Part shown: positions 270-58,451 of the stretch, one piece after another
Layout: each line of letters starts with the position of its first letter
Position numbering within the stretch: the stretch's first letter is position 1
Origin: Bradyrhizobium sp. CCGB12
Lineage (GTDB): Bacteria > Pseudomonadota > Alphaproteobacteria > Rhizobiales > Xanthobacteraceae
Direction of reading: 5' to 3'
Assembly: GCF_024199845.1 (NCBI RefSeq)
Contig: NZ_JANADO010000001.1
Span: 5,394,001-5,458,000, forward strand
Length of the DNA: 64,000 nucleotides
Program-made: the position numbers and the translations under genes
The notes under the pieces: generated by a model
Database searches by the model: none
The model's input: the letters and a program-made list of their open reading frames with translations, nothing else
Told to the model about the DNA's origin: nothing

Positions 270-1507
270 TTACAATGAGCCGCTTCGCTTGATCGGAATC
301 ACCGCACCAGAAACGTGCGTCCTTCGTTCGCCGGCTGTTCCGCGCTTGCCTATTTTCTCGACCGCATCGGATAAATAGTCGGGATGGTGATGGCCGTACG
401 TGTTGAGCAGCACCTGTAGCGACATTCCGAGATAACCTGCGGCCTGCCAAGGATCCGCACCTCTCTGCATGAGCCACGTCGCTGCGGTGTGTCGCAAAGT
501 GTGGGGGGAGATTCCCGGACCAAGTTCCGCAAGCCTAACGGCAGTCCTGAACGCCGTTTTGACCGAGCTCACAGGCTTTCCGTTGTACTCGACAAAATGC
601 TTTGCCTCTGGATCGATCCGATGCCAGCGCCGCAGGTGAGCAAGCAAGCGCAAGGGGATCGGCACAGTCGGCTGTCGCTTGTTGGTCTTCGCCGCCCCCT
701 GCTTCAGACGGTAGTAGCGACCTCGCTCCAGATCTACGTACGATCGACCAAGCGCTGGAATGGGAGATGCGGCTGCGATGGCCCCGGCACGGGTGCCGCT
801 GTAAATTCCCAATAAGATGAAGCGAGCAAGATGTCGCAGTGGCCGTTTGCTCGTTGCGACCTTTATCTCATCCGACCGCCGACGCGAACCCTTCTGCATT
901 TCGCGATGACGCCAGCAGGTCCAGATCAGTTTGGCTGCATCGCTGCGCGTCAACCACTTGTCTCTCGGCTCTTCTCAGGCAGAGAGACCTTCACGATTTC
1001 CCGATGATACCCTTCGTGTGCATGGTGACCGATGGCGGCGCGGAGATCTTCAAGAGCTCGGCGTGCACCGCCCCTTTTGCAACGTTTTCTGGTGTAGGAA
1101 CGACATGCTTCACCATTGACCTCGCCGAGCATTTTTGCCCCCCACCACACATTCAATCGTTCAATTCGTTTTTTGAACTTGCGGATATTTGGGATGTTAT
1201 CTTCGTTTTCGCTATCGACACTGAAGCGACTGCGAAGCTTGTCTAGCTGGGCATCCAAATAAATCGAGAGGACATCCGCAATAGCGATATCGTCTATGTG
1301 ACGAACTCGTCGCTTCGGAATGTGCTTGGAAGTTATGTAGTCCCTTAGTCTTTCTTCCGCGAGCGCAATCTCATCTGGAGCGCAGCCTGTGCTGACATCC
1401 CGTCCGCTGTCTCTGATGATCCATGTCGCTTGGTGAGTGACCTTTCGGTTTTTATCTCGGCGGGCGGCCTTGAGCTGGAGTCTGGCGCCCTTGCTTCTTC
1501 GCGGCAT
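270..1507 (-). pseudogene. Tyrosine site-specific integrase, split by a frameshift
   Basis: Two abutting reading frames together make one rhizobial-type phage integrase. The N-terminal part (1507 to 950, 185 residues) holds the SAM-like core-binding region and ends in SLPEKSRETSG. The C-terminal part (953 to 270, 227 residues) holds the catalytic domain, with the first Arg in YSGTRAGA, the HTLRHTAATWL box and the Tyr region LLNTYGHHHPDYL. The expected joint SRDKWLTRSDAA is readable only by shifting frame at a GAGA microrepeat near 961-965, so the gene looks inactivated by a small indel unless this is a sequencing error. Such integrases insert or excise genomic islands at att sites. The gene overlaps the upstream excisionase-like gene. 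No tRNA target is visible. Confidence 0.85.
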
Positions 1508-11674: not shown

Positions 11675-13150
11675 ATGAAGCGATTGCCCTTTGATACAGT
11701 CTTGATCGCCAATCGGGGCGAGATTGCTGTACGTATCATCAAGACCTTGCGCAAGCTCGGGCTTCGCTCTGCACTCGTATACCACGAGATCGATGCGGAC
11801 ACTCTCGCCGTGTCCATGGCCGACACCGCTATCCGCATTAGCGGGCTTACCCCCATTGCGGCCTATCTCGATATCGCGCAGATCATCGCTGCTACTCACA
11901 AAGCGCGTGCTGGCGCCCTTCATCCTGGCTACGGCTTTTTATCGGAGAATGCAGAGTTCGCCCGCGCGGTGATCCGGGCCGGCATTACGTTTGTCGGTCC
12001 GACTCCCGATAGCATGGAACTGATGGGCGATAAGATTCGAGCTCGCAACTTTGTCCAGCGGAACGGATTCCCGGTCGCTCCTAGCACCGTAGAAGAGGAC
12101 GACCCCGGGACATTCTTATCCCGGGCACGAGCAGTTGGAGCCCCTTTGCTCGTCAAGCCTTCGGCAGGCGGCGGAGGCAAGGGCATGCGGATTGTGCGCG
12201 ATCTCAATTCGCTGGAGGACGCGATTGCACAAGCTCGCAGTGAGGCTCAGCGTTACTTCGGAGACGGTCGACTCTACGTCGAACGATATGTCGAACACCC
12301 ACGTCATCTTGAAATTCAGGTGCTCGGCGACGAGTTTGGACACGTGGTTCATCTTTTCGAGCGCGAGTGCTCGATCCAGCGGCGATTCCAAAAACTCATC
12401 GAGGAGACGCCATCGCCGGCACTGTCTTTAGAGATGCGTCAACGATTATGCGACGCCGCCGTCGGAATCGCGCGTGCCGCCAATTATCGTAATGCCGGAA
12501 CTGTCGAGTTTATTTTCGATGGAGCAAATTTCTATTTTCTAGAGATGAACACCCGCCTACAGGTCGAGCATGCAGTGACCGAGATGACCACCGGCATCGA
12601 TCTTGTTGCAGAACAGATCTATGCTGCCGCTGGTTGTCAACTCGGATTTACGCAATCCGACATCTTGCAAAATGGGCATGCGATCGAGGTCCGACTGTGT
12701 GCGGAAGCGCCGCAACGCGCGTATGCCCCCACAACCGGCAGGATACTTATGCTCGAATACCCGGATGGCGACGACGTGCGGATCGACAGTGGCATCTTGG
12801 AAGGCCAACGAATTACGACAGCGTTCGATCCTATGCTGGCGAAGATTATCGTGCATTCGCCCACGCGCATCGAAGCTGCGCAGAAGGCATGTCGCGCTAT
12901 GCGCGAACTGATTCTTCTTGGTTGCGAAACGAACGCGAGCACCCTGGCGCGCATCCTAGCGGACGACGGATTTCTGCGCGGCCAAGTTCATACCGGATAT
13001 CTGGACGAAAATCCTTTTCTTGCCGAGGGCGACGCCGAATCCGCACTACCGGCCTTCTTGGCGGCGGCCGCGCTGCTGACAAGACCGGTCCGTGACTCGG
13101 CAGATGCCGTGCCAGAGCTTCACGCAGCGCTAGGCAGCTGGAGAAATTGA
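11675..13150 (+). CDS. Acyl-CoA carboxylase, biotin carboxylase subunit
   Basis: 491 residues. The protein opens with DTVLIANRGEIAVRIIKT, the ATP-grasp N-lobe, and contains the Gly-rich ATP loop PSAGGGGKGMRIV, the HPGYGFLSEN motif, the bicarbonate/ATP motif ERECSIQRRFQKLIEE and the catalytic EMNTRLQVEHAVTEM. It lacks a biotinyl domain, which is encoded by the next gene. It carboxylates carrier-bound biotin using ATP and bicarbonate. First gene of a tight three-gene operon (next start 1 base after its stop). The partner carboxyltransferase is of the acyl-CoA (methylcrotonyl/propionyl) type, so this is probably not the housekeeping AccC. Substrate is unknown. Confidence 0.95.
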   Translation: MKRLPFDTVLIANRGEIAVRIIKTLRKLGLRSALVYHEIDADTLAVSMADTAIRISGLTPIAAYLDIAQIIAATHKARAGALHPGYGFLSENAEFARAVIRAGITFVGPTPDSMELMGDKIRARNFVQRNGFPVAPSTVEEDDPGTFLSRARAVGAPLLVKPSAGGGGKGMRIVRDLNSLEDAIAQARSEAQRYFGDGRLYVERYVEHPRHLEIQVLGDEFGHVVHLFERECSIQRRFQKLIEETPSPALSLEMRQRLCDAAVGIARAANYRNAGTVEFIFDGANFYFLEMNTRLQVEHAVTEMTTGIDLVAEQIYAAAGCQLGFTQSDILQNGHAIEVRLCAEAPQRAYAPTTGRILMLEYPDGDDVRIDSGILEGQRITTAFDPMLAKIIVHSPTRIEAAQKACRAMRELILLGCETNASTLARILADDGFLRGQVHTGYLDENPFLAEGDAESALPAFLAAAALLTRPVRDSADAVPELHAALGSWRN

Positions 13151-13151
13151 G

Positions 13152-13655
13152 TTGAAACACCACTTTGAGGTCGATGGAATAGACTATCCATTGTGGCTCG
13201 TACGCTGCGCAGAGGGATATCGCCTTAGCATGGATAATGGGGTGCTTGCCTCACTGAGATTCTCCCGCCAATCGGAGCGTCGCGGTACTCTCACTATCGC
13301 CGGCGAACGCGAGCCAGTCAGGTTCGTCATCGATGGTGAGACAATCCATTTGCATATGCGCGGGCTGGCGCGCAGTTTGCGTTATCGTGATCCGATGCGA
13401 GCTTTCGCTTCGGCAAGCCGGGAAGCCAATCATCTGATGGCCCGGGCGCCAATTCCTGGGATCGTGCTTACGATCGCCGTTTCGCCGGGGCAATCCGTGT
13501 CGGCCGGCACGGCGTTGATGACCATCGAGAGCATGAAGTTGGAAACCACCATACGCGCTCCAAAGGACGGCGTTGTCAGCCGCATTCACTTCAAAGAAGG
13601 TGAAAGCTTCGAGCGTGACGCCGTACTGGTTAGCCTTTTAGAGGAAGGACTCTAG
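13152..13655 (+). CDS. Biotin carboxyl carrier domain protein of acyl-CoA carboxylase
   Basis: 167 residues from a TTG start at 13152, with GGAG nine bases upstream. The C-terminal biotinyl domain (residues ~95-167) starts at the APIPG turn and carries IESMKLE, a variant of the usual EAMKM, with biotinylated Lys at about residue 129. The N-terminal ~90 residues are a beta-rich region (HFEVDGIDYPLWLVRCAEGY) comparable to the BT region that docks the carrier to the carboxyltransferase in fused alpha subunits. The protein shuttles carboxybiotin between the flanking subunits. In most methylcrotonyl- or propionyl-CoA carboxylases this domain is fused to the biotin carboxylase; here it is free. Confidence 0.9.
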   Translation: MKHHFEVDGIDYPLWLVRCAEGYRLSMDNGVLASLRFSRQSERRGTLTIAGEREPVRFVIDGETIHLHMRGLARSLRYRDPMRAFASASREANHLMARAPIPGIVLTIAVSPGQSVSAGTALMTIESMKLETTIRAPKDGVVSRIHFKEGESFERDAVLVSLLEEGL

Positions 13656-13656
13656 A

Positions 13657-15264
13657 ATGCAGCGGATCGCCTCTCAGGTAGACCCACGATCGGAGGAGTT
13701 TAGGCTCAACGAACTTCACAATATGCGTCTTGCATCCGAGTTGAAGGCACTCCAGCATGCCATCCGCTTCGACCGGCCGGCGCGAGAGATCGAGCGGCTG
13801 CATCAGCAGAAAAAGATGTTCGTTCGCGATCGCATTGAGACATTGCTCGATCCTGATACGCCGTTCCTGGAACTTTCGACATTGGCTGGCAACAGGGCAT
13901 ACGACGGTGAGGTGCCGGGTGCGGCCCAAGTCGTCGGCCTAGGAATCGTTGCGGGCCGTGAGGTCATTGTTCACGCGGATGACCCCAGTGTGAAAGGCGG
14001 GGCCTGGTATCCGCATTCGGTCAAGAAGATCGTGCGAGCTTTGGATATAGCGATTGAAAATCGTCTGCCCGTGATTCATTTGTGCGATTGCGCCGGCGGC
14101 TTCCTACCGATGCAAGCGGAGTTCTTTGCAGATAAGTATCATGCCGGGCGAATCTTTCGGAACCAGTCCATACTGTCCAAAATGGGAGTGCCGCAGGTCG
14201 CTATCGCAATGGGTCATTGCACCGCAGGCGGCGCGTACGTTCCGGCACTCAGTGACTACAACATCATCGTCGAGGGTACGGGAGCGATTTTTCTCGGCGG
14301 CCCTCCAGTCGTCAAGGCTGCCACTGGCGCGGTAGTTTCTGCCGAAGAGCTTGGCGGCGGTCACGTACACACCAGCGTGTCCGGGACCTGCGACTATTCC
14401 GCAACGTGCGAGGCACATGCGATTGCTATCACGCGGGATATCGTTGCTCGTTTCGATCAGCCTGCAAAGACCCTGATCAATCGGGCCGCTCCGGAGGCCC
14501 CCGCCTATGACGCGTCAGAACTCTATGGCATCCTTCCAAGGGATCCACGCCTGCAACTCGAGATGCGAGAGGTCATCGCTCGCCTGGTCGATGGCAGTCG
14601 ATTCCACGAATACAAGGCGTGCTATGGCGACACTCTGGTGTGCGGCTTTGCACAGCTGCATGGCTATCAAATTGGTGTCCTGGCGAACAATGGTGTGCTC
14701 CTGAGTGAAAGCGCACTGAAAGGTGCTCATTTCATTCAGTTGTGCGACAAGAACCGAACACCCCTCCTCTTCCTGCAGAACGTCACCGGCTTCATGGTTG
14801 GCCGCGATTACGAAAGACGCGGCATAACCAAGGACGGCGCTAAATTGATCATGGCCGTCGCTGGAGCGTCTGTGCCCAAATTCACGCTCGTTTGTAACAG
14901 TTCCCACGGAGCCGGTACCTACGCTATGGCAGGACGAGCTTTCGATCCACGCTTTCTATTTTCTTGGCCGCAGTCACAGATCTCAGCAATGGGCGCTGAA
15001 CAGGCGGTGGGCGTGCTAACACATGTCAAGGCAAAGCAATTAGCGCGCCACGGTCGGCGCCTTTCGGAAGAGCAGCTGGCGGCCATTCGCGAGCCGATAG
15101 TGGAAGAGTATCGAGAGCGGTCGAACGCCTACTATGCGACATCCGAAATATGGGATGACGGAATTCTTGATCCAGTGGACACAAGGAACGCTCTTGCTAT
15201 GGTTCTTAGCGCCTCACTCAATGCGCCGATCGAGGCACCTCATTACGGCGTCTTTAGAATGTAG
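13657..15264 (+). CDS. Acyl-CoA carboxylase, carboxyltransferase subunit (MCC-beta-like)
   Basis: 535 residues, the usual length of methylcrotonyl-CoA carboxylase beta subunits. The N-terminal crotonase-fold half has the oxyanion/acyl-CoA-binding segments VKGGAWYPHSVKK, DCAGGFLPMQ, GHCTAGGAYVPALSD, FLGGPPVVKAATGAVVSAEE; the C-terminal half has FLQNVTGFMVGRDYE and GAGTYAMAGRAFDPRF. The sequence aligns by memory best with MccB/LiuB rather than AccA/AccD. It transfers CO2 from carboxybiotin to an acyl-CoA. It starts 2 bases after the carrier gene with GGAAGG upstream. The actual acyl-CoA (methylcrotonyl, geranyl, propionyl or a symbiosis-specific one) cannot be told from sequence. Confidence 0.93.
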   Translation: MQRIASQVDPRSEEFRLNELHNMRLASELKALQHAIRFDRPAREIERLHQQKKMFVRDRIETLLDPDTPFLELSTLAGNRAYDGEVPGAAQVVGLGIVAGREVIVHADDPSVKGGAWYPHSVKKIVRALDIAIENRLPVIHLCDCAGGFLPMQAEFFADKYHAGRIFRNQSILSKMGVPQVAIAMGHCTAGGAYVPALSDYNIIVEGTGAIFLGGPPVVKAATGAVVSAEELGGGHVHTSVSGTCDYSATCEAHAIAITRDIVARFDQPAKTLINRAAPEAPAYDASELYGILPRDPRLQLEMREVIARLVDGSRFHEYKACYGDTLVCGFAQLHGYQIGVLANNGVLLSESALKGAHFIQLCDKNRTPLLFLQNVTGFMVGRDYERRGITKDGAKLIMAVAGASVPKFTLVCNSSHGAGTYAMAGRAFDPRFLFSWPQSQISAMGAEQAVGVLTHVKAKQLARHGRRLSEEQLAAIREPIVEEYRERSNAYYATSEIWDDGILDPVDTRNALAMVLSASLNAPIEAPHYGVFRM

Positions 15265-17089: not shown

Positions 17090-18103
17090 ATGGATTCCCT
17101 CAAGTCTCTTATTGGGAAAGTCGCCACCGGAGCCGGGCTGACCCGCGAAGAAGCGGCATCGGCGTTCGAACTAATCATTTCAGGCGAGGCCACGCCTTCA
17201 CAAGTCGGCGGGTTCCTGATGGCGCTGCGGGTGCGGGGCGAAACCGTAGAGGAGATCACCGGAGCGGTTTCGGCCATGCGCAGCAAGATGCTGCGGGTGA
17301 GCGTGCCCGCTGAGGCGATCGACATTGTGGGCACCGGCGGGGACGGTTCCGGTTCGGTGAACGTGTCGACATGTGCCGCTTTCATTGTCGCAGGCGCCGG
17401 CATTCCGGTTGCAAAACATTGCAATAGCGCGGCCTCCTCCCGCTCAGGCGCCGCCGACGTCCTAGCATCGCTCGGGGTGAAGCTCGATCTCGATCCTGAT
17501 CACGTTGGTCGTTGTGTGCACGAAGCTGGTATCGGATTTATGTATGCGCCCGTCCATCATCCGGCGATGAAGCACGTCCGCACGACACGGGTCGAGCTAG
17601 CGACCCGCACCATCTTCAATATGCTTGGCCCGCTGGCCAATCCGGCAGGGATCACGCGGCTGGTGGTGGGGGTTTTTTCGCGCGGCTGGGTGCAGCCTTT
17701 CGCGCAAGTGCTGCAGACTCTTGGCGCTAACTCGGCGTGGGTAGTGCATGGTTCGGACGGCCTTGACGAGATCACTCTTACTGGCTCGACTCTTGTCGCC
17801 GCACTTAGCGAGGGCTGTATCCGAACATTTGAGGTGACGCCGGAGGAAGCGGGCCTCACTCGCTGTAGCGGAGAAAGTCTAAAGGGCGGCGACGCCCACG
17901 CCGGCGCAGTCGCGCTACAAAGCGTGCTGGACGGAATACCAAGCTCGTATCGCGACATAGCGATCTTCAACGCCGCCGCAGGACTGGTGGTCGCCGGACA
18001 CGCCAAGTCCTTAAAGGACGGCGTTGCCATCGGAAAGCAATCAATCGATACGGGCGCGGCAGCGGCACGACTGAAACGTCTGATCGAAGTGTCAAACGCT
18101 TGA
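17090..18103 (+). CDS. trpD: Anthranilate phosphoribosyltransferase
   Basis: 337 residues, normal length. It joins anthranilate to PRPP in tryptophan synthesis. The PRPP loop [17 protein letters not shown] and the downstream ASLGV segment are conserved, as are the anthranilate-side motifs [11 protein letters not shown] and [15 protein letters not shown] and the acidic pair in GSDGLDE. One oddity: the usual KHGNRxxSS motif reads KHCNSAASS, so a Gly and the Arg of the substrate loop are replaced. It is followed 14 bases later by trpC. trpE/G and trpA/B/F are absent from the block, so this is an extra partial trp set and not the housekeeping operon. Confidence 0.95.
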
Positions 18104-18117: not shown

Positions 18118-18936
18118 ATGTACGACTTTCTGAGCAGGATCGAGGCCTACAAGCGCGAAGAGATCGTCTACGCGAAGGGAGCGGTGCCGCTATCAGAGGT
18201 CGAGGCCCTCGCACGGCATGCTCCGGCGCCGCGCGGATTTGTCAGCGCGATTCGCAACAAGCATATTGCGGGCGAGTACGCACTTCTTGCCGAGATAAAG
18301 AGGGCCTCCCCCTCCAGAGGCCTCATTCGCGCTGACTTCGATCCGTCCTTGCTGGCCAAGGCCTTTGAGGCCGGCGGAGCGGCCTGCCTCTCAGTCCTAA
18401 CGGATGGAAAGTCCTTTCAGGGACACCTCGATTTCATGACGGCGGCCCGAGCTGCAACAAACCTACCGATACTGCGTAAGGACTTCATCTTCGATACCTA
18501 TCAGGTAACCGAAGCACGCGCCTACGGATCTGATTGTATCCTGATCATCATGGCGGCTCTCGACGACGGCGCTGCCCGCGAGATCGAAGCCGCCGCACAC
18601 TCATATGGTATGGACGTTTTAATTGAGATCCATGATCACGATGAGCTCGAGCGCGCACTAACACTTCGTTCGCCAATGATTGGCATCAACAACCGAAATT
18701 TGCGTTCTTTCGTGACAACGCTAGCGACCACCGAAACGCTAGCGCCGCTGGTTCCAAAAGACCGTGTAACCGTCTGCGAAAGCGGCATCTTTGCGAATGC
18801 CGATCTGCACAGACTCTCACGGGCTGGCGTCTCAACCTTCCTCGTCGGCGAGAGTCTGATGCGGCAGTCCGATGTCACGGCAGCAACCCTTGCGCTGCTA
18901 TCACGTCAGCCTAACGTTGAGCTCGGAACGCATTGA
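18118..18936 (+). CDS. trpC: Indole-3-glycerol phosphate synthase
   Basis: 272 residues, a single-domain (alpha/beta)8 barrel. Catalytic elements are present: [13 protein letters not shown] (Glu, Lys), [12 protein letters not shown] (catalytic Lys), [13 protein letters not shown] (Glu), [10 protein letters not shown] (Asn, Arg) and [11 protein letters not shown], plus the phosphate-binding VGESLMR. It decarboxylates and closes CdRP to indole-3-glycerol phosphate in the cytosol. It is coupled with trpD. Together they would raise flux to indole, useful either for tryptophan or for auxin via the aminotransferase/monooxygenase pair 5 kb downstream (inference). Confidence 0.96.
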
Positions 18937-19844: not shown

Positions 19845-20115
19845 TCATGGACGACCGATTTCCGTAACGAGGCTGACGTCATCCCTCCGTTGCCCGCAGG
19901 TATTCTCGCAACGGTCATTGAGGAGCAAAGAGAGCGGCCTGCGGGATGCAAACGGGATCTTGGATGGACTCGCCGTTCTGGCCCGGCGATCGCCGGGGAG
20001 CCGCTCGTCAATCAACCGACAACAGCCCAATCGAGCCCCTCGAACCACGATCGGAATCTCACTTTTGAGCGCGTCCGAACGAAGACGAGGTCAATGTCAA
20101 AAGAGTGAGCGACTG

Positions 20116-21654
20116 ATGATTAATCTCAGCACCCTGATTGAGCGAAGCGCGGCGTTCGATCCCGATAAAGCGGCAATCCATTTCGAGGGGGCCACTTTAA
20201 GCTATGCCGCTCTCCTCCGTCGTATCGAGCAGGCCGCGCGTACTTTGGAAACCCGCCTCGGCATCGAGAGAGGGGACCGCATTGCGATCCTCAGCCTCAA
20301 CCGGCCTGATTATCTCATTCTGTTGTATGCTTGCGCGCGACTCGGCGCAATCCTCGTGCCATTGAACTGGCGGCTTGCGATCGCCGAGCAGCTCTTCATT
20401 CTGTCCGATGCTGGTATCAAAGTCCTGGTGCTTGAACAGGCCTTCGACGAAATCCTACCGATGCTGGCGCAGGAGTTGCCCTTTGCGGCCATTATCGGAT
20501 TCGACTTTGATCCCGTCGGCGGAAGCAATTGGCATGAGCTGCTCGAGCAAGCGCGCGGCGATGATCGCAACGCGCATGTCGATCTCTCCTGCCCACTCCT
20601 GATCGTCTATACGTCGGGGACCACAGGACGCCCCAAGGGCGCGGTGCTGCGCCAAGAAGCCTTGCTTTGGAATGGCGTCATGAGTCGGCACATGCATGGG
20701 CTCAGCGCGACCGATCATATCCTATCCGTGTTGCCATTGTTTCACGTCGGCGGCCTCAACATTCTGACCACGCCAGCCTTGCATTACGGCGCGACCGTTA
20801 CGCTCCACAGGCGGTTTACGCCAGAGGCAACCCTTGCAGCATTTGAGCGCGATCGGCCCACGCTAACCGTATTGGTGCCAGCTACGATCCAAGCTCTGGC
20901 CGATCATCACGGATGGCCTATGGTCGACGTATGCTCCCTTAAGGCCATCTCCACAGGTTCGACCATGGTGCCACGGCACGTTATCGAACAATTGACCGGT
21001 CGCGGGATAACGGTGCTGCAGGTGTACGGCTCAACGGAAACCAGTCCCATTGCTCTCTATACAAGGCTATGCGGCGATCTCACACGCGATGGTTCGACGG
21101 GACTACCCGGCCTATGCTGCGAGGCCGCAATCGTGAATGATGCCGGCGACAGGCTACCGCCAGGCACTGCAGGCGAGATTGCGGTACGCGGGCCCAATCT
21201 CTTCAGTGAATATTGGAACAACCAACAGGCAACCCGAGAGGTTTTGCGCGACGGCTGGTACTATACCGGCGACATTGGACGCCACGATGCGGACGGATAT
21301 TTTTGGGTTCTCGATCGCAAGAAGAATTTGATCATTTCCGGTGGAGAAAACATCTACCCGGCGGAGGTGGAGCGTGTGCTTACGGAGCATCCGGATGTCG
21401 CGGAATGTGCCGTTGTCGGCCGGCCCGATCCTCGTTGGGACGAAGTGCCGGTCGCCTACGTGGTCAAGCAGCCAGGAGCCCGGATTGAGGCGGATGTTCT
21501 GATCGCATATGTCAAGGTGCAGCTCGCGCACTTCAAGGCGCCACGCGAAATCATCTTTACAGACGAGTTGCCGCGAAACGAGTTGGGCAAAATCCAGCAT
21601 TTCAAGTTGAAGAAGCTCGATGCCCACTCGAGCAATCAAACCGAGGCAAATTGA
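20116..21654 (+). CDS. AMP-dependent acyl-CoA synthetase/ligase
   Basis: 512 residues from ATG 20116 (the frame stays open to 19768 but the extension is not family-like). Adenylate-forming superfamily signatures are all present: A3 loop LLIVYTSGTTGRPKGAVL, A5 VYGSTETSPIALYTR, A7/A8 WYYTGDIGRHDADGYFWVLD and DRKKNLIISGGENIYPAEVE, and the C-terminal catalytic Lys region LPRNELGKIQ. It activates a carboxylic acid as acyl-AMP and forms the CoA thioester. The size and the LPLFHVGGLN segment suggest a long-chain fatty acid or aromatic acid ligase; substrate is uncertain. Its position after trpDC makes an aromatic acid such as an anthranilate- or indole-derived acid conceivable. Confidence 0.92.
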   Translation: MINLSTLIERSAAFDPDKAAIHFEGATLSYAALLRRIEQAARTLETRLGIERGDRIAILSLNRPDYLILLYACARLGAILVPLNWRLAIAEQLFILSDAGIKVLVLEQAFDEILPMLAQELPFAAIIGFDFDPVGGSNWHELLEQARGDDRNAHVDLSCPLLIVYTSGTTGRPKGAVLRQEALLWNGVMSRHMHGLSATDHILSVLPLFHVGGLNILTTPALHYGATVTLHRRFTPEATLAAFERDRPTLTVLVPATIQALADHHGWPMVDVCSLKAISTGSTMVPRHVIEQLTGRGITVLQVYGSTETSPIALYTRLCGDLTRDGSTGLPGLCCEAAIVNDAGDRLPPGTAGEIAVRGPNLFSEYWNNQQATREVLRDGWYYTGDIGRHDADGYFWVLDRKKNLIISGGENIYPAEVERVLTEHPDVAECAVVGRPDPRWDEVPVAYVVKQPGARIEADVLIAYVKVQLAHFKAPREIIFTDELPRNELGKIQHFKLKKLDAHSSNQTEAN

Positions 21655-23476
21655 TCGTCTAGGGTTGACACCTACGGCATATCTACCTGCGAACTGATCG
21701 TACGCAACTCAAGCCTTATGACAGCCAGACCGCATCTGGCCCTACCGTGTGGAACAAGATCGCGGTAGCCGGTTCAGAGTTGTCACTTGCGTGCGATTGA
21801 CACCCAGCGGTCGACATTGCCAGCGGGTCGATGACGCGTGGCAGAGAACGAGTTTCGAAGTCGTGCTTGGCATTCTTGTTCGCAGTGGCACTGGAGCGGA
21901 AACCTTCTCGAGCGAGGGCCACAATAGGTAGTCGCCCGTAAGAATCCGGAAGTCGGACGAGCTGAAGCGGGAGCGCATGAACCTGATGAGGATTTGGCAC
22001 GACAACAGCTGATCCAACTTGGGAGATGGCGGACGTTATTAACCACAGTGGCGCGGATGGCGTCGATGGCGTCTCCTTCGATGGCATAGGCAATTAACCC
22101 ATGCCGTACTTGGATCTGATCCTGTCGATGAGCGGCGCGACAGTGCAAACCCGCAGAGCTCGCTTTGATCTGTGGCGTCACCCGCCATTTTGCTGCGGAG
22201 ATGAACACCCCGAGCTTGGAACGAGGCGGGACGTGACCGCGATAAGCATTGACAAGGAACGCGCGCTACATGGTGTTTGATCAGCCCCCCATCTGGAAGA
22301 TGACAGTTGCAAGTGTGGCCGTAATGACCGTTCCAGCCATCACCTCCACACGGGCCACGAACTGCCCGCCCTGGCGTGCGCCGACTCGGTGGCGAGCTAG
22401 ACCTTGTCTCCGACTCGCAAGGTCCGTGTGCCCAGCTCTTTCTGACGTATTCCATCTCCGGCGCGAGCAATGAGTAGACCATCGGCTCACGCTAGGTGCG
22501 GTTCTGCTCCAAGCACGCGTCGCACAAGCGCCAGCATACGCTCCATCGCTTTTGAGCCTGCGGACTCTAGTAAATCAATTGAAAAGAGCCCTGGGGGGCT
22601 TGAATCGCACGTAGCGTCAAATTGTACCGTCTAAGACAAGGAGACGGTGACGTACAACCGGACGCAATCCGGCTAAGCCGCGGCTTGGATCTCAGAAGCG
22701 CTACTTCTGCACTTCTCGACAAGAGGTTCCGAGGGAGCGGACGACTGTCGTCGCCTACGAGGGTAAGCGGCCACAAACCACTCGATCGCAAAGGACCGAG
22801 GAATGTACTGGACAGCGGAACGATGATCGACATGGCTCCAGTCTTTGGACGAAAACTTCGCGCGACAAACCCTGTGGACCCCGTTCGTTCGCGGCCGCTA
22901 TTCATTCATAGGCCCAACAACACGCTCCGCCTGCTTGAAACTAAGCTACCCTCGTTTCAAGCATCATCGTGCCGAACTGCTGCTGGCCGCGGCAGCAACG
23001 ACACGGTTGAATGCGAGGTCGGCGCGACACCTGCAGCAACAAATGTCAACCTTTCGCGCTTGTCGATTCCATCAGCAGACAGCATCATTCCGCGCAGCGC
23101 ATACGAAATCGTAGGCAGGCGACGCGGATCAGCATTGCTTCCAGCTAATCAACTGAAGTGCGTCGCTCGTTGACGAACTGGATCTCGTACCCTTTCACAA
23201 GGAAGTCTGATGCGGAAGACTCAGTTCGCTCGATGTGCTTACCGAGCTCAGATGACGGTGTATCGGTGGATCGATCGGATCAATTGAGAGTGTCGCCGCT
23301 GCTCACAACATTGGAGATAACTCGCCGGCCTAGGTGACTTCAGCCGACCTTCGTGGGGGCACTGACCCGATACGCTCGCCCGAATTAAAGACTGCTAACA
23401 CTCAGCCCGTCCGCAGCTATCAGCGCGCTTGCCGAACTTCTTGCGCAGAATTCCTCTACCAAAGAAACCGGAGATA
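21655..23476. other. 1.8-kb gene-poor region before the aminotransferase
   Basis: No intact gene. The minus strand near 22300-22480 reads ELGTRTLRVGDKV then a stop and other-frame fragments, suggesting a decayed gene I cannot identify. The region holds the third MerR-type element (22600-22630). I searched the last 250 bases for a nod box, because the comparable y4wEFG locus of NGR234 has one, and found none convincing. Confidence 0.45.
22600..22630 (+). promoter_or_regulatory. MerR-type promoter element, copy C
   Basis: -35 TTGAAT (22600-22605), 19-bp spacer CGCACGTAGCGTCAAATTG, -10 TACCGT (22625-22630). It is almost identical to copy A and close to copy B. It lies about 850 bases upstream of the hisC-like gene. 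Confidence 0.5.
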
Positions 23477-24580
23477 ATGATGACGGACGCAAAGTTACGG
23501 AATCTGCTATCGTCGCTTACTCCGATCGCTCGCGAATTGGACGCTCTCCCGGCTGGCCGACCAGCCCCAGATGATAGTTATGTGAAGCTAGATACGAATG
23601 AGAATCCATTTCCGTTGCCAACCATCGTGATGCGAAGTGCAATTGCAGCTCTAGAGCGGCAATATCTGTATCCGGAGAATGACAACGTCAGCTTGAGGGA
23701 AGCAGCGGCCGCTGCCTATGGCATGTCCGCGGATCGCGTCATGGCTGGTAATGGATCATCTGAACTTCTTAGTCTAGTTTATAGAGCCTTTCTCGCGCCG
23801 GGTGACAGCATAGCAATGATGTCGCCGGGGTTTTCGTTCAACCGTAAGCTAGCGATGTTACAAGGGGCGCAGCTTCTTGAAGTCCCCTGCGACGAACATG
23901 ACAGCCTACCGATCGATAAGTTGCTCTTCGGCCCTGCAAGACACGCCAAGTTCATTCTGTTGGCTAATCCGAACAATCCCACGGGCGCCTTTGTGCCGGT
24001 CGCTGAGATCGAGCGCCTCGTCGCGCGATATGACCGATTGGTCGTGCTGGACGAGGCATATATTGATTTCGCGCCCGAGAACGGACTGCATCTGCTGACT
24101 CGGTATTCGAATCTTCTTGTTTTGCGTACGTTCTCCAAGAGCTACGCAGCTGCGGGCATTCGCGTTGGCTTCGCGTTCGGCCACCCCGAGTTGATCGGGA
24201 GGCTTCGCAACATCCAGAACGTTTTCAACATGAATGTGATCGGGCATGCCGTCGGCATGAGCATCCTTGCGCATCGCCGCGCTTATGACGAGAACCATAG
24301 CTACATCAAGCATGAACGGCAGCGAGTCTCGGACGCACTCTCTCACTTCGGGTTCGCTGTAACGCCCTCGCATGCGAATTTTCTGCTCGCCCGTGTGCCT
24401 GCGGGTCAGGACGGCAGATGGTGGCAGAGCGCTCTTGAACGTCAGAAGGTTCTTGTCGCCTTCTTTGCGGATGATGGCATGCAAGATTGCATCCGCGTTA
24501 GCATCGGTACGAAGGAGCAGATGGACGCGTTTCTTACCGCCGTCCGCAAGCTTCGTTACGGAGCAGACAGCGCTTCTTGA
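23477..24580 (+). CDS. HisC-like aromatic aminotransferase (y4wE-like)
   Basis: 367 residues from ATG 23477 (a second ATG follows directly at 23480 and fits the GGAG at 23470 slightly better). It is a fold-type I PLP aminotransferase of the histidinol-phosphate subfamily: substrate start KLDTNENPFPLP, AGNGSSELLSLVYR, LANPNNPTGAF, VLDEAYIDFA, and PLP Lys in LRTFSKSYAAAGIRVGFAFG. HisC-type enzymes often accept tryptophan, phenylalanine or tyrosine. In Rhizobium NGR234 a HisC-like aminotransferase, Y4wE, followed by a luciferase-like Y4wF is required for flavonoid-induced indole-3-acetate production; the same gene order here supports tryptophan transamination to indole-3-pyruvate. A plain histidine-biosynthetic role is less likely without other his genes. 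Confidence 0.88.
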   Translation: MMTDAKLRNLLSSLTPIARELDALPAGRPAPDDSYVKLDTNENPFPLPTIVMRSAIAALERQYLYPENDNVSLREAAAAAYGMSADRVMAGNGSSELLSLVYRAFLAPGDSIAMMSPGFSFNRKLAMLQGAQLLEVPCDEHDSLPIDKLLFGPARHAKFILLANPNNPTGAFVPVAEIERLVARYDRLVVLDEAYIDFAPENGLHLLTRYSNLLVLRTFSKSYAAAGIRVGFAFGHPELIGRLRNIQNVFNMNVIGHAVGMSILAHRRAYDENHSYIKHERQRVSDALSHFGFAVTPSHANFLLARVPAGQDGRWWQSALERQKVLVAFFADDGMQDCIRVSIGTKEQMDAFLTAVRKLRYGADSAS

Positions 24581-24816
24581 CGGCCTCCTATTCAACACTC
24601 ATCCGGCGGACCGGCATGTGCGCCAGAACGTTTTTGGGCGTCGGGCCAGTCTCCTCGCTAGGCCTCTTTGAGCGCTGTCGGACGCACCTCTGGAATCCAA
24701 GAGTTATCGCCGCGGGGCATTAGACCGCCCTGCATCACAAGCAATGCATTCCGTTCAAGGCCCTCCGGCCTTTGACAGCCAGCAGAGCTCAACTTCTCTT
24801 AGTTGGAGATAATCGA

Positions 24817-25842
24817 GTGACTAACATCCCTGTTTCGACTCTCACTTGCGGCATCTTCGATCATTTTGATGAGAATGGGCGCAATATCACCGAACAATAT
24901 GCGGACCGCATGGTCTTGGCAGAGGCCTACGATCGCCTCGGATTCTACGCGTATCATCTGGCGGAGCATCACTGTACCCCCCATGGACGAAGCCCCTCGC
25001 CGAACTTGTTTCTGTCCAGCGTCATACAGCGCACCCGGCGGCTTCGTGTCGGTCAACTGGTCATGCTGCTTAACCTCTATCACCCCCTGCGCGCGTTCGA
25101 GGAGATCTGCATGTTGGATCACTTGAGTAATGGCAGACTTGAAGTGGGTATTGGTCGCGGCTCCCTCCCGTTGGAACTGACATATTTCGGGGTCGATGCG
25201 GATGTGGCTGCTAGTCGTTACGAGGAAGCTTCCCAAATTCTTGCTAATGCGATGAATGGTGGCCTTTTAAACTATCGGGGGCAGCATTTTGTGCTCGACG
25301 ATGTTCCCTTGACCCTTTCGCCCCACCAGCGTCCACACCCCCCAACGTGGGTCGCCACAAATCGGCCAGAGTCAGCCAGTTGGGCGGCAGCAAATGGTGC
25401 AAACCTTGCGTGTGTGGGGCCGTCTTCTGTTGTTCGAAAAGTCACCGACGTGTTTCGGGCTCATGGAAACACCGAGCGCTCCGCTGACGGAAGGGACCGC
25501 TTTATTGCGTTGCTCCGCATGATCGTGATTGGACGTTCTGAGGCAGAGGCCCATTCGCTCGCCGCACCTGCTTACGAACGCTGGCTCGCTAATTTTAAGT
25601 TCCTGTACGAGTTAAAGGACATATCACTGCCCTCCAACCTTCCCCCCACCTTCGAGGCCGCAATCGAAAGTGAACTGTGCGTCGTAGGAACGCGCGCTTC
25701 TGTGCGGCAGACCGTTCTTAATCATCTGGAGGAAGCCGGCGCCAATTATCTGCTTTGTCAGCTCGCATTTGGAAGTCTGCCAGTCGATGCAGCCCTCAAT
25801 AGCGCAGCTGCGATCCATTCCGAATTCATCGCGCCTCAGTGA
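24817..25842 (+). CDS. Luciferase-like flavin monooxygenase (y4wF-like)
   Basis: 341 residues from GTG 24817, chosen because GGAG stands eight bases upstream; the frame also runs back to a TTG at 24772. The protein is a bacterial-luciferase-type TIM barrel: LAEAYDRLGFYAYHLAEHH near the start, LVMLLNLYHPLRAFEEICML, then LSNGRLEVGIGRGSLPLE, the flavin-phosphate-binding signature. Family members use reduced FMN and O2 (LLM class). Together with the HisC-like gene 236 bases upstream it recalls y4wE-y4wF of NGR234, the locus for indole-3-acetate synthesis, where the monooxygenase may oxidatively decarboxylate an indole intermediate. Reaction is inferred. Confidence 0.88.
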   Translation: MTNIPVSTLTCGIFDHFDENGRNITEQYADRMVLAEAYDRLGFYAYHLAEHHCTPHGRSPSPNLFLSSVIQRTRRLRVGQLVMLLNLYHPLRAFEEICMLDHLSNGRLEVGIGRGSLPLELTYFGVDADVAASRYEEASQILANAMNGGLLNYRGQHFVLDDVPLTLSPHQRPHPPTWVATNRPESASWAAANGANLACVGPSSVVRKVTDVFRAHGNTERSADGRDRFIALLRMIVIGRSEAEAHSLAAPAYERWLANFKFLYELKDISLPSNLPPTFEAAIESELCVVGTRASVRQTVLNHLEEAGANYLLCQLAFGSLPVDAALNSAAAIHSEFIAPQ

Positions 25843-26381
25843 CTGTTTTCGAGATCCACTCAACTGAACCTCGGCGTGAGACGCTCGACGAAATCCAGAC
25901 GCTAAACAAACGAATCGTTTGGTCGGGACGCTAGCGACAGGAGGACGGGATGTTTGTGGATCCCGCGAGTCGATGAGGCCAGCGCGGGAGCAACGCGTAG
26001 AGATCCCAATTTTGCCCGCGCTGGCCCCAAACGTGATTGATTCAGCCTGCGCCTGCATATTGGCGACAGGGGCCCAACGTGGTGTCTGCGGCGCGTTGAA
26101 GAGGAGGTCTATATTCGACGCTTATGATCTGGTATCACCTCGGCGTCATCCGCGTGTAGTGGATTTCACGTATTAGTTCGAACGCCTACTCTCAGCAATC
26201 GGCAACGTGGAGGCGGCGGCCAGCTGCCTAAAGACATCTGATACGGCCGGCATTCTTCTCCATCTCGATGTCGTCGCCGACTTGTTGGGCATCTCTTTGC
26301 CGCCGCTATCTGCCTTCCGATATCTTCCAGTTTTCAGCAGTGCCTCGACACGCGTCCGCTAGCCGTCTTGTACTGTCTTGA
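25843..26381. other. Spacer between y4wF-like gene and MFS gene
   Basis: About 540 bases between convergent genes. No third gene equivalent to y4wG was recognised and no intrinsic terminator was found. Confidence 0.45.
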
Positions 26382-27572
26382 TCATGCCCCACTCGCAGCT
26401 TCTACCGGTTCTGGATTGCGCACGAAGGCAACAGCAAGCCCGACGCCGGCAAGGCCAATCAGGATGGACGCCGCGGCCAGGGATTTGGCCCCGCTGTTCT
26501 CGAGGATAACTCCGCCGAGAAAAGCGCCAATGGCGATGCCCGCGAAGGTAGTCGAGCTGTTCATCGCCAGGACCAGCCTCGACCTGCCCCCGGCTACGCC
26601 GAGGAGCCGGTGCTGGATGGGGACGAGATACATGTAGCTTACGTTGCCCCAAAGGAAGGCGATGAGCAGGGTGAGGAAACCATCTTGTCCGAAGGCAATA
26701 AGCCCTATCAGCAGGAGTGGTTGTGCCCCGACCGCCACGATGAGGACCTTGTAGGGCCCGAAACGGTCGGTCAGAAAGCCACAGGCTGCGTTCCCGGTCA
26801 CGGCTCCGAGACCATAAGCAAAGAGTGCGGCCGAGAGCAGCGGCACCCCGGCAAGCAGAGAACCGGTGATGAAGACACTGACGTAGGAATAGACGACGAA
26901 TTCGGAAACGACAACGAACAGTGTCACGGAAAGGACACCATAGATGATCTTGGGGAAGTCTTTCGAGGCGAGACCTTTTTCGTGCTCGGGCGCCTTAGCA
27001 GCGATCCCAGACATCATGGGGGTGGAGATCAGCAATGCGAGGAGCCCGGCGATGACAACGAAGACGAAGGCATAGCGCCAGCCGATTGCATCTGCGATCC
27101 AGCTGGTGGCCGGAACGCCAGCAACCTGTGAAACGGTCATACCGCCGAAGATGAGGGACAACGCGATCCCCTTGCGGGCGGGCAGGAGGAGCTCGGTAGC
27201 CAGTGCGTTAGCCGCCGGCGTGAACATCGCCGCGCCATAGGCCGACACGACGCGACCTGCCGCAAGGATTAGGAGATTCGGTGCGATCGCGCAGACCAGA
27301 TTGCCGACGATGAAAATCGAGACAGACAGGATCTGGACATTGCGGCGGCTCATGGTCTTGAACGTCCAGGCATTCAGCGGCGCGAAGAAGGCGTAGCAGA
27401 TTGCGTAGATCGAGATGATCCAGCCCGCCGCGCTGGTAGAAATCGAGAGGTCACGAGAGATCACATCAAGCGCGCCGATGATGACAAAAGTGTTCAGGCC
27501 AATAGCGAAGGCACCAATGGTTAGAGCAGTAAGGATGAGTTTTGTTCTTGCATCGGGAGGGGGTGAGATCAT
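26382..27572 (-). CDS. MFS transporter, DHA1-type drug/metabolite exporter
   Basis: 396 residues with about twelve hydrophobic spans. Features of the 12-TM drug:H+ antiporter-1 group: an Asp-containing first loop (VIIGALDVISRDLSIS), the motif after TM2 NAWTFKTMSRRNVQIL, TM4 AGRVVSAYGAAMFTPAANAL, and motif C-like GGMTVSQVAGVPATSWI in TM5. It is an inner-membrane proton-driven exporter similar to AraJ-like permeases; substrate unknown. It faces toward the aminotransferase/monooxygenase pair (convergent), so export of their product is possible but unsupported by co-transcription. Confidence 0.9.
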   Translation of the reverse strand: MISPPPDARTKLILTALTIGAFAIGLNTFVIIGALDVISRDLSISTSAAGWIISIYAICYAFFAPLNAWTFKTMSRRNVQILSVSIFIVGNLVCAIAPNLLILAAGRVVSAYGAAMFTPAANALATELLLPARKGIALSLIFGGMTVSQVAGVPATSWIADAIGWRYAFVFVVIAGLLALLISTPMMSGIAAKAPEHEKGLASKDFPKIIYGVLSVTLFVVVSEFVVYSYVSVFITGSLLAGVPLLSAALFAYGLGAVTGNAACGFLTDRFGPYKVLIVAVGAQPLLLIGLIAFGQDGFLTLLIAFLWGNVSYMYLVPIQHRLLGVAGGRSRLVLAMNSSTTFAGIAIGAFLGGVILENSGAKSLAAASILIGLAGVGLAVAFVRNPEPVEAASGA

Positions 27573-27954: not shown

Positions 27955-28752
27955 CTACATTAGAGGACATAGCTGTTCTCCGCGACCTGCTGCCTCAGCC
28001 GTTCCAGCCACGAGATCGTCTAGGAATATGATGTCGCATGCCGAGATTCCCTGGAACTCAAGATACTTGAAGGTCGCATGATGGTGATAGCTTCTCGCTG
28101 GGCCGAGCGTGTAGATGCGGACCATCAGGAGATGTCCTTTTTGCTCGTTTATGATCATGGCTTCGAGTTCGCAGGCTCCCCTGTGATGTGTGCTAAGGAC
28201 AGCACCTAAGCATCCGCTGCGGCGCGCAATCATCGCGTTGTCCGAGCCCGAGGCAAGTTCGAGGAAATTTTCCTTAGTGATCTGCGGGGGGCGGACCTTT
28301 AACGCGTCGGTCACTGACCAACACGCAGAAATGCAGGGGATGATCTCCTCGGGCGAGGCCAGTTCTCCGCGGATGACGCTCACCAGTTGGTGGACTGCCT
28401 CGTAGCTTTCGATGTGTAGAAGGATTGGCACATGAATGCTTCTGGTGCGGCAGCGTCCGAGGTCATTCCGCATCAGGTCGACGATCATGAGATTCTCGGC
28501 CCGGCTCTTTTCGTCCAGGCGCAGTTCTTCTGCGATCCGCTCATCTTCCGCTGGGACCTCATGTCGAGCCGCGGTGCCCTTCATGGGCTTGACGGCGCGT
28601 GCGAGACGGATGCGCCGTGAAAATGGACGATGGATTGATGCCCTAGGCACACTCCCAAGACGGCAACGGTGCTGCCGGCCAGAACATCCATCGCGCAGCA
28701 TATCTCGGAGTATGAGGGTTGCCCGGCCTTGGCGAGAGGATAATGCGTTCAT
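27955..28752 (-). pseudogene. Chorismate-binding enzyme (PabB/TrpE type), degenerate
   Basis: A 265-codon minus-strand frame carries the C-terminal core of a chorismate-utilising enzyme: PMKGTAARHEVPAEDERIAE, then KSRAENLMIVDLMRNDLGR, then HIESYEAVHQLVSVIRGELA and SACWSVTDALKVR in place of the expected FPxGSxTGAPKVR. The Lys in PMKGT points to the aminodeoxychorismate synthase type. After this the match dissolves, and the N-terminal half is missing or scattered upstream (28749-29018 is open but not family-like). Loss of the SITGAPK motif, which is catalytic, shows it is inactive. An intact homologue lies at 62374-63768. Confidence 0.7.
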
Positions 28753-31296: not shown

Positions 31297-31875
31297 ATGG
31301 GATATCCCAGCCAAGACCTTATCCGGAGCGTTCAGGCGAAACGCACGCAAGAGCGCATGAGCCAGCGTGCGTTGGCCGTCAGATCGGGTCTGACCCAAGC
31401 GCATATCTCCCAGATAGAGACCGGCCGCCTCGAACCAGGCCTGTCCAGCTTCATCCAGATGGTCCGGGCACTCGACCTTGAGATTGTACTCGTGCCTAAG
31501 AAGCTGCTTCCCGCGGTAGAAGCCGTTCTGCGCTCGAACACCAACGATTTCTCCCTCGAGGAAGGACCCTCAAACCTCTTCGCCAAGGCCGAACGCATCG
31601 TTTCCGGACAAAGGAAACGCCACGGTAGCTCCGCCGCGCTCGACCGCATCGCCGAATACTTACGCTTTCTGAAACAGGTCCACCTTTCGAAAGCTGACCT
31701 GACGGTTGTCAACGACGTCGTCGACACACTGCGAGGCTATCGCGCCGAACCGATCCCCAACTCAGTACTGGAAACTTCAGCAGGCGTATTGCAGGGTCTG
31801 CGCAACCGGATCGCACATCCCGTAGAAACCCCCCGTCCCGCCTACGCTCTCGACGACGAGGACGACGATGCCTGA
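31297..31875 (+). CDS. hipB: HipB-type XRE antitoxin with long C-terminal extension
   Basis: 192 residues, about twice the length of E. coli HipB. Residues ~8-65 form an XRE/Cro helix-turn-helix (SVQAKRTQERMSQRALAVRS, then LTQAHISQIETGRLEPGLSS). The extension (residues ~85-180) is helical, with an RFLKQVHLSKADLTVVNDVV segment and a RNRIAHP motif reminiscent of short helical HEPN-like folds, but I do not assign it. It would neutralise HipA and repress the operon through the dyads just upstream. The stop overlaps the hipA start by 8 bases, indicating translational coupling. Confidence 0.85.
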   Translation: MGYPSQDLIRSVQAKRTQERMSQRALAVRSGLTQAHISQIETGRLEPGLSSFIQMVRALDLEIVLVPKKLLPAVEAVLRSNTNDFSLEEGPSNLFAKAERIVSGQRKRHGSSAALDRIAEYLRFLKQVHLSKADLTVVNDVVDTLRGYRAEPIPNSVLETSAGVLQGLRNRIAHPVETPRPAYALDDEDDDA

Positions 31876-33091
31876 CGTATCGGTCCTAGACGTACGCCTA
31901 CACGACGCCCCTATCGCGACCCTCACGCTGGTGCAGGGCGACCGATCGCTGCTTGCCTTCAACCAGAACTATATCGATAACCTCGCACGTCCGACATTGA
32001 GCCTGTCCTTCAAGGACTCGTTCGGAAACCTGCTCACCTCGTTCAAACCGTATCAGCAGGTCCTTCCACCTTTCTTCTCCAATCTTCTGCCGGAGGGGCC
32101 GCTGCGCCGCTACCTCGCGGAACGTGCGGGCGTGAAGGAAAAGCGTGAGTTTTTTCTTCTATGGATGCTGGGCCGAGACCTTCCAGGCGCCCTGTCGGTC
32201 CAACCGGCGGACGGAGAAGCATTGCCGCCTCAGGTTGAGGAGGATCTCACACCAGACGAACGGCAGAACATGCTGCGCTTCTCGCTCGCGGGCGTGCAGC
32301 TGAAATTCTCCGCGCTCAAGAACGATCCAAAGAGAGGCGGACTAACCATTCCAGTCGAGGGCGTCGGCGGTTCGTGGATCGTCAAGCTGCCCTCCCATCA
32401 GTACACGGGCGTGCCCGAGAACGAATACTCAATGATGACCTTAGCGAAGGACATGGGCATGGAAGTGCCCGAGCTTCAACTTATCGACGTCGAGGCGATC
32501 AACGGACTCCCGGAAGGTATCGGCGAGCTGAAGGGACGGGCGCTGGCCGTTAAGCGGTTCGACCGCACCGCCGACGGGCCGGTCCACATGGAGGATTTTG
32601 CGCAGATATTCGGCGTGTTCCCGGACGAGAAATATGACAAGGCCAACTATCGGAGCATCGCGCGCGTCCTGGGCCTAGAGACCGGCGAGGCCGGCATCGC
32701 TGAGTTTGTCCGACGTCTCGTGTTCAGCACACTGATCGGCAACGCCGACATGCACCTGAAGAACTGGTCGGTGATCTATCCCGACCGCCGGACGCCGGTT
32801 CTGTCGCCCGCCTACGATCTGCTGTCGACCATACCGTACATCGCGGACGACAAGATGGCGCTGAATTATTCGCGCACGAAGAAGATGGCCGAATTCTCCA
32901 AAGACGAGCTGAAGCATCTGGCAGCGAAGGCAAGGATCTCGGAGAAGCTCGCCGTCGACACGGCCGCGGAAACCGTCCAACGCTTCAAGAAGATGTGGAC
33001 GGAGCGCAAGGCAGATCTCCCCCTGGAAAAGAAAGTCGTCGAAGTGGTCGACAAGCACGCCGCTTCGATCCCGATTTACAACGAACTCTGA
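31868..33091 (+). CDS. hipA: HipA-type Ser/Thr kinase toxin
   Basis: 407 residues. The N-subdomain-1 portion (DNLARPTLSLSFKDSFGNLL, LPPFFSNLLPEGPLRRYLA) is followed by the kinase core: Gly-rich/autophosphorylation region FSLAGVQLKFSAL (the usual Ser-containing loop lies here), WIVKLPS with the ATP Lys, EYSMMTLAKDMGMEVPE, ALAVKRFDR, the catalytic loop IGNADMHLKNWSV (Asp294, Asn299), and the Mg-binding LSPAYDLLST (Asp317). In E. coli HipA phosphorylates glutamyl-tRNA synthetase and induces persistence. All key residues seem present, so it is probably active. Codon use and neighbours suggest horizontal arrival. Confidence 0.95.
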   Translation: MPDVSVLDVRLHDAPIATLTLVQGDRSLLAFNQNYIDNLARPTLSLSFKDSFGNLLTSFKPYQQVLPPFFSNLLPEGPLRRYLAERAGVKEKREFFLLWMLGRDLPGALSVQPADGEALPPQVEEDLTPDERQNMLRFSLAGVQLKFSALKNDPKRGGLTIPVEGVGGSWIVKLPSHQYTGVPENEYSMMTLAKDMGMEVPELQLIDVEAINGLPEGIGELKGRALAVKRFDRTADGPVHMEDFAQIFGVFPDEKYDKANYRSIARVLGLETGEAGIAEFVRRLVFSTLIGNADMHLKNWSVIYPDRRTPVLSPAYDLLSTIPYIADDKMALNYSRTKKMAEFSKDELKHLAAKARISEKLAVDTAAETVQRFKKMWTERKADLPLEKKVVEVVDKHAASIPIYNEL

Positions 33092-53597: not shown

Positions 53598-53606
53598 GTT
53601 GAGCTT

Positions 53607-58067: not shown

Positions 58068-58169
58068 CAAGCTACTCCCCTCGTCCTCTCGTGCGCGCAT
58101 CGCGCATCGAATGCCCTACCCTCGACTGAGGGTTTTCGTATTCGCATTCTTATTGCCTGAATCGTGAGC

Positions 58170-58439: not shown

Positions 58440-58451
58440 GATTTTGCCGGG

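Follow-up and report, generated by a model that had tools for sequence, protein, structure and literature searches.

Introduction

In Sinorhizobium fredii NGR234 the genes y4wEFG are reportedly required for the synthesis of indole-3-acetic acid (IAA), as the title of a 2004 paper by Theunis has it. Here we describe a stretch of 64,000 nucleotides from the genome of Bradyrhizobium sp. CCGB12 (G000:C1:5394001-5458000, hereafter the window; the genome comprises 9.43 Mb in 2 contigs) in which a gene for a HisC-like aminotransferase is followed by a gene for a luciferase-like (LLM) flavin monooxygenase, and we compare this arrangement with y4wEF. The gene pair is a known one; what is new here is a Bradyrhizobium version that appears to be under different regulation.

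The published record ties the pair to symbiosis and to auxin. In Rhizobium tropici CIAT 899, y4wEF are induced by apigenin and by salt (PMC4782375). In R. leucaenae, flavonoids raise IAA only when the plasmid pSym is present, and the response is lost without it; the same source reports that the y4w genes of NGR234 are not required for nodulation (PMC3557214). With reference to Tullio 2019, one review assigns y4wF to an indolepyruvate decarboxylase (PMC10459833). No report of the reaction of purified Y4wE or purified Y4wF was found in the literature searched, a collection that lacks most subscription journals.

Results

Both genes of the window are complete and lie on one strand, E then F. y4wE (23480..24580, forward strand) encodes a HisC-like pyridoxal phosphate (PLP)-dependent aminotransferase of 366 residues counted from ATG 23480, with its PLP lysine at K221 in the 367-residue numbering that starts at 23477. 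y4wF (24817..25842, forward strand) encodes an LLM flavin monooxygenase of 341 residues with a GTG start. The intergenic stretch between them (24581..24816, forward strand) measures 236 bp and holds no detectable terminator-like site. The y4wE start is most likely ATG 23480 (MTDAKL), which is kept in three aligned relatives; ATG 23477, missing from those three, was rejected. The start of y4wF was placed at GTG 24817, where the family alignment begins, and the mechanical open reading frame start at TTG 24772 was set aside as it disagrees with this family start. Identical letters, GGAGATAAT, directly precede both starts. Across positions 23100-26400, terminator-like sites numbered 0 against a shuffle average of 2.7, and a sigma-70 promoter scan returned nothing. 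With these two starts corrected and both genes intact, the initial annotation of an aminotransferase followed in the same direction by a luciferase-type monooxygenase stands.

In a tblastn search against plasmids, the window Y4wE is 72.3% identical to the NGR234 Y4wE encoded on pNGR234a over 98% of the query. The gene after y4wE in the pNGR234a record is an LLM oxidoreductase 69% identical to the window Y4wF, with the match spanning residues 1-338 of 341. Order and strand are the same, and in both organisms the pair shares a replicon or island with symbiosis genes. The two loci differ in that the window has no nod box upstream of y4wE, in that the flanks are different, and in that the window pair is chromosomal and that of NGR234 plasmid-borne. 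The third NGR234 gene, y4wG, gave no match of at least 50 bits by tblastn in the window or in loci L012-L091. The gene names follow CIAT 899, which carries the same pair and for which y4wF coordinates are published: these coincide with an LLM match (H62), which identifies y4wF as the monooxygenase and hence y4wE as the aminotransferase (PMC4782375); one published table has the two functions the other way round (PMC10970691). The homology to the NGR234 pair, including that of the second protein to Y4wF, and the CIAT 899 coordinates together confirm the proposed identity with y4wE-y4wF, and the window pair is almost certainly a Bradyrhizobium orthologue of y4wEF, with a symbiotic role.

The association with nodulation is evident from gene content. 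Among 242 Bradyrhizobium species genomes, 104 contain y4wF and nodC, 4 contain y4wF alone, 22 nodC alone and 112 neither (Fisher p 1.7e-40, a value that ignores shared descent; genomes were drawn evenly). Both genes were called at E <= 1e-90 and broken copies were scored absent; the y4wF carriers match at no less than 63% identity, and genome G025, which has only a 51% paralogue, was left out. The two genes share a contig in 95 genomes, at less than 20 kb in 83, at 20-60 kb in 8 and beyond 60 kb in 4. These last four are the window genome, where chromosomal y4wEF lies 99 kb from nodC, and G079, G188 and G185, whose Y4wF proteins are 89-93% identical to that of the window. Among 397 genomes of the order, 7 contain y4wF, 8 contain nodC and 6 contain both. 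In 17 of the 22 nodC-only Bradyrhizobium genomes there is no y4wE match at E <= 1e-75 either; of the five with a match, G028 retains 317 of 367 residues, G073 has a full-length y4wE with one stop, and G037, G205 and G229 hold y4wE pieces. These counts place y4wEF in the symbiotic gene pool, yet not in every nodC carrier, and y4wEF is a gene set tied to nodulation.

The two genes also travel together. Scanning species genomes with Y4wF yielded 204 confirmed stretches, the best 80 of which form our locus set. In 77 of these 80, y4wE precedes y4wF on the same strand at a distance of no more than 600 bp, and because the loci had been found with Y4wF only, the pairing goes beyond chance; y4wE is cut or broken in two of the 77 (L015, L033). 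The three exceptions are two Microvirga loci (L050, L066) and an Ensifer locus with a broken y4wE, whose genome holds another full-length y4wE elsewhere. In the two Microvirga genomes y4wF is present and the best y4wE-like sequence is a 31-33% HisC-like match. By eye, a transposase-like gene lies upstream of y4wF in L050.

All organism-named loci among the 80 belong to the rhizobial genera Bradyrhizobium, Mesorhizobium, Rhizobium, Sinorhizobium, Ensifer and Microvirga, and the nearest named locus found is that of Bradyrhizobium yuanmingense (92% for Y4wF, 87% for Y4wE). A protein search added three Paraburkholderia relatives of Y4wF at 65-70% identity. No second intact Y4wF above 35% identity was found in the window's own genome. 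Two Bradyrhizobium loci (L041:6551-9014 and L049:6549-9017) carry a tandem y4wF behind y4wE at 66-70% identity to that of the window. More distant paralogues of Y4wF, at 50-53% (one each in G025 and G235, two in G144; L116-L119), have no y4wE in their four neighborhoods and offered no substrate clue; they are a possible non-symbiotic source of y4wF. At the left end of the window, a split integrase-like gene (270-1507, reverse strand) resembles by eye one in the relative G140 (L123:9075-10325), which there adjoins a y4wE matched only at residues 148-318, with y4wF intact.

Given that Y4wE passes the NCBIfam HisC model TIGR01141 (291.4 bits against a cut-off of 276.55), y4wE is usually named hisC, and many database relatives of Y4wE are called histidinol-phosphate transaminase. 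Both observations would favor a reading in which Y4wE is a redundant histidinol-phosphate aminotransferase and the neighboring monooxygenase is functionally unrelated to it. TIGR01141, however, does not separate Y4wE from HisC, and a maximum-likelihood tree does: a branch with support of 100/99 splits 48 Y4wE rows from 16 HisC rows and places NGR234 Y4wE (L001) inside the same clade as the window Y4wE. The tree drew on 64 of 97 collected rows, the omitted ones being near copies and two HisC copies (L093, L106); its HisC rows were taken from Bradyrhizobium and from further families within the order, with long branches flagged and the deep order unsure. The phylogenetic check proposed with the initial annotation thus leaves Y4wE outside the HisC rows used.

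Closer comparison of 79 Y4wE rows and 17 HisC rows, aligned to E. coli HisC (L115), highlights three positions that set the two groups apart. At the position of E. coli Arg322, Y4wE has alanine in 78 of 79 rows and glycine in the remaining one, and HisC has arginine in 17 of 17; at that of Tyr20, tyrosine occurs in 0 of 79 Y4wE rows and in 16 of 17 HisC rows; and at that of Asp85, all 79 Y4wE rows have serine and all 17 HisC rows aspartate. The window Y4wE has Leu24, Ser95 and Ala328 at the Tyr20, Asp85 and Arg322 positions, respectively. In the E. coli enzyme, Tyr20 and Arg322 are substrate contacts. The equivalents of E. coli Lys214, Asp184, Tyr187, Arg222 and Arg335, which form the PLP site, are present in 79 of 79 Y4wE rows. 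In the HisC-subfamily enzymes of Mycobacterium tuberculosis, whether histidinol phosphate or an aromatic amino acid is accepted depends on the pocket and an N-terminal lid; the lid residue Tyr25 closes on the ligand, and in the aromatic aminotransferase Arg322 binds the dicarboxylate partner (PMC4703992). These two residues would correspond to the E. coli Tyr20 and Arg322 positions.

With three HisC-typical residues gone from every one of the 79 rows, Y4wE should not use histidinol phosphate, and it may be unusual in its amino acceptor. Y4wE is, moreover, only about 29% identical to its own genome's HisC candidate (C1:8085829), and the near-constant pairing with y4wF and the strong co-occurrence with nodC are at odds with redundancy. 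The tree and the residues rule out a housekeeping HisC, and the redundant-aminotransferase reading as a whole is extremely improbable.

Y4wF matches the Pfam Bac_luciferase model and has the fold of that family. Its E50-H51-H52 aligns with the EHH of 1brl_A, and His44 is the catalytic histidine of the luciferase alpha chain. The fold prediction used here was built on 69 sequences and is good; an earlier one on 24 sequences was poor (predicted local distance difference test score, pLDDT, 65.8) and was not used.

The window genome also bears a remnant of the pair at its nodulation genes. It contains nodABC, two nodD-like genes and nolA (5524422-5525126). A decayed y4wF (G000:C1:5525308-5525729, L128) lies directly behind nolA, beside nodABC and about 100 kb from the window pair; its protein matches are interrupted by stops. 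This is the place that the pair occupies on plasmid p187_1 of Bradyrhizobium sp. 187 (L002), whose genes are 79% and 78% identical to those of the window, likewise without a detectable nod box upstream of y4wE, but follow nodD-like LysR and NolA-like MerR genes beside nodABC; in the window genome the equivalent place holds only the decayed gene. Across the other Bradyrhizobium loci, some of them cut by contig ends, the 7 kb upstream of y4wE include a nodD-like gene in 20 of 28 cases and a NolA-like gene in 22 of 28. The decayed DNA aligns to the B. jicamae y4wF region (L027) with 66% identity over 445 bp (E 9e-17); window y4wEF DNA gave no match to the decayed-copy site at E 1e-3. Because the decayed y4wF is nearer the B. 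jicamae type, the window pair is more probably a separate copy than a relocated old one.

Finally, we examined control of the pair with nod-box, sigma-54 and NifA consensus patterns. Nod boxes were counted at 78 loci as sites scoring 30/41 or more within 1.5 kb of y4wE on either strand, omitting L005 (a piece of the window) and L015 and L033 (truncated y4wE). Such sites accompany y4wE in 3 of 5 Sinorhizobium, 5 of 5 Martinezella (relatives of R. tropici), 2 of 2 Rhizobium and 1 of 1 Ensifer loci, 11 of 13 when pooled, two of the 11 (L060, L085) being oriented away from y4wE. In NGR234 the site lies 169 bp upstream of y4wE and scores 30/41. None was counted at 28 Bradyrhizobium loci, the window included, at 36 Mesorhizobium loci or at one further locus. 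The whole 64-kb window gave no nod box (best site 26/41), and the best site in the 1.5 kb upstream of its y4wE, 24/41, is at background. The scan is able to see Bradyrhizobium nod boxes, as it found one of 36/41 beside the nod genes of strain 187 and, elsewhere in the window's own genome, in a stretch of 184 kb, sites of 38, 35 and 32 of 41, the first of them 0.6 kb upstream of nodA; the maximum over ten shuffles of this stretch was 28/41. In CIAT 899, nod box NB4 lies 680 bp upstream of y4wEF (PMC4782375), and the window differs in having none that we could find.

The expectation in the initial annotation that this locus is flavonoid-induced thus finds no support in the sequence, and nod-box control of the window pair is very unlikely. 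It could be argued that, as in NGR234, flavonoids nevertheless induce the pair, with NodD binding a site so diverged that the scan misses it, and the nodD-like LysR genes upstream of y4wE in most other Bradyrhizobium loci speak for this. Against it, none of the 28 Bradyrhizobium loci rises above background in the 1.5 kb upstream of y4wE, the scan detects the box on the nodA side of the same genome, the window contains no nodD-like gene, and no ATC-N9-GAT motif occurs within 1 kb upstream of y4wE; we consider a divergent NodD site improbable. The window likewise has no TGT-N10-ACA element, examined for sigma-54/NifA control, within 600 bp upstream of y4wE. Sigma-54 control was rejected, the best -24/-12-like match scoring 9, a value equaled by 355 of 2000 random 600-bp stretches. 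By eye, two Mesorhizobium loci (L034, L035) have, about 700 bp upstream of y4wE, a stretch reading EVL.NCDFPGNIRELE, resembling the closing residues of a sigma-54 activator domain like the one in NifA.

Several other genes lie near the pair. A second trpD (17090..18103, forward strand) and a second trpC (18118..18936, forward strand) stand outside the pair, 4.5 kb upstream of y4wE, and are 75% and 73% identical, respectively, to the copies at G000:C1:2458786 (trpC compared with the copy beside the other trpD, L010). Among ten genomes, five (G000, G079, G188, G059, G185), all with a Y4wF of at least 89% identity, have a second trpD 5.9-8.9 kb from y4wF. The y4wF carriers G001 and G002 each have a second trpD as well (77% and 61%), separated from y4wF by 34-36 kb of one contig; a single trpD was found in G076; G005 has a second trpD at 61%, though neither y4wF nor y4wE was found there; and in locus L062 trpDC (69-73%) lie downstream of the pair. 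The extra trpDC genes proposed as suppliers of indole precursors are thus real second copies, but the supply role is weakly supported, the association within 10 kb being limited to five of ten genomes and to one clade. Local indole supply by trpDC is possible in this clade, without being a fixed feature of the system.

An AMP-binding enzyme of the acyl-coenzyme A (acyl-CoA) ligase type (20110..21654, forward strand) lies between trpDC and y4wE in the window and in L012 and upstream of y4wE in L013 and L014, the proteins upstream of y4wEF in L012-L014 being 87-90% identical to it. Downstream of y4wF, a major facilitator superfamily (MFS) transporter gene (26382..27572, reverse strand) is convergent with the pair; with a best E of 0.20 it is not significantly similar to the MFS gene that precedes y4wE in NGR234, and it was rejected as the counterpart of that gene.

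Elsewhere in the window, three genes in a row at 11675-15264 (forward strand) appear by eye to encode a biotin carboxylase, a biotin carrier-like protein and a carboxyltransferase. A pabB-type remnant at 27955-28752 (reverse strand) matches about 107 residues in the middle of the model. At 31297-33091 (forward strand), a helix-turn-helix protein, recognized by eye, precedes a HipA-like protein in a toxin-antitoxin-type arrangement, the HipA N-terminal domain scoring over the cut-off. Inspection of 52749-63768 indicated a cluster of vitamin genes (panC, panB, bioA, bioD, bioF, bioB and a panD-like gene), and pabB (62341-63768) exceeds its model cut-off. Within 59600-61120 (reverse strand), bioB is frameshifted, its frame ending at 60275 and continuing in another, through either an error or a pseudogene, and the panD-like reading frame, seen by eye, follows it.

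Discussion

The plant TAA1-YUCCA route makes auxin with a tryptophan aminotransferase followed by a flavin monooxygenase, and the same logic would apply to Y4wE-Y4wF. The second enzymes differ, Y4wF having a luciferase fold and not being a YUCCA-type flavin adenine dinucleotide (FAD) monooxygenase, and we do not claim shared descent. In this scheme Y4wE would act as transaminase on an aromatic amino acid, tryptophan being the likeliest, and so yield indole-3-pyruvate. With reduced flavin and oxygen, Y4wF would then oxidize the Y4wE product to IAA, acting on indole-3-pyruvate by oxidative decarboxylation or on indole-3-acetaldehyde much as luciferase oxidizes its aldehyde; a housekeeping reductase could supply the reduced flavin. 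We regard IAA, or a close indole acid, as the probable product, and an auxin function of the window pair as plausible.

Several points weigh against this assignment. First, the assignment of IAA draws on work in other genera, namely in NGR234 and R. tropici. Second, the closest solved relative of Y4wF is only 26% identical, LLM enzymes catalyze many reactions, and the two Microvirga genomes indicate that y4wF can occur without its y4wE partner. Third, the tree compares Y4wE with HisC from within the order and omits closer outside relatives such as PDB 3hdo. The phenylalanines of Y4wE at E. coli positions 110 and 243 do not discriminate, because they are mostly phenylalanine in HisC too (12 of 17 and 16 of 17 rows, respectively). 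Finally, because Arg322 is seemingly missing, Y4wE would not be simply a standard aromatic aminotransferase, and it may use another amino acceptor or carry out other PLP chemistry.

Some of the same evidence could be read as pointing to a symbiosis-specific small molecule other than IAA, with the IAA loss in NGR234 indirect or the indole acid a by-product. Loss of Arg322 and of the lid tyrosine sets Y4wE apart not only from HisC but also from the M. tuberculosis aromatic aminotransferase; the LLM enzymes close in fold to Y4wF include RslO1, MsnO8, the PuwE domain and Baeyer-Villiger enzymes; and an acyl-CoA ligase and trpDC lie near the pair in this clade. The acyl-CoA ligase, however, was confined to the window and L012-L014 in a set of searched loci with short flanks, and the published mutant and plasmid-loss results indicate IAA. 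A non-IAA product thus seems to us unlikely, though far from negligible, and an indole acid the better candidate.

A more specific proposal joins these elements: Y4wEF would be a bacterial two-step auxin route largely confined to nodulators, in which the luciferase-fold Y4wF, in place of a decarboxylase or a YUCCA-type enzyme, oxidatively decarboxylates indole-3-pyruvate. The route would have come under NodD only in Rhizobium, Sinorhizobium and related genera, with Bradyrhizobium and Mesorhizobium regulating it in some other way. In this full form it is tentative, a possibility that we hold to be doubtful on balance.

These findings bear on how such genes are named and compared. The hisC name in databases masks a nodulation-linked enzyme whose partner y4wF occurs in 108 of the 242 Bradyrhizobium genomes sampled, and a residue test at the Tyr20, Asp85 and Arg322 positions tells Y4wE from HisC. 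Given the division of nod boxes by genus, the link from flavonoids through NodD to auxin should not be transferred untested to Bradyrhizobium and Mesorhizobium, and the same division points to the genera worth comparing. Should the proposed reaction of the two enzymes be demonstrated, y4wEF would encode a compact route to auxin whose second enzyme is unusual.

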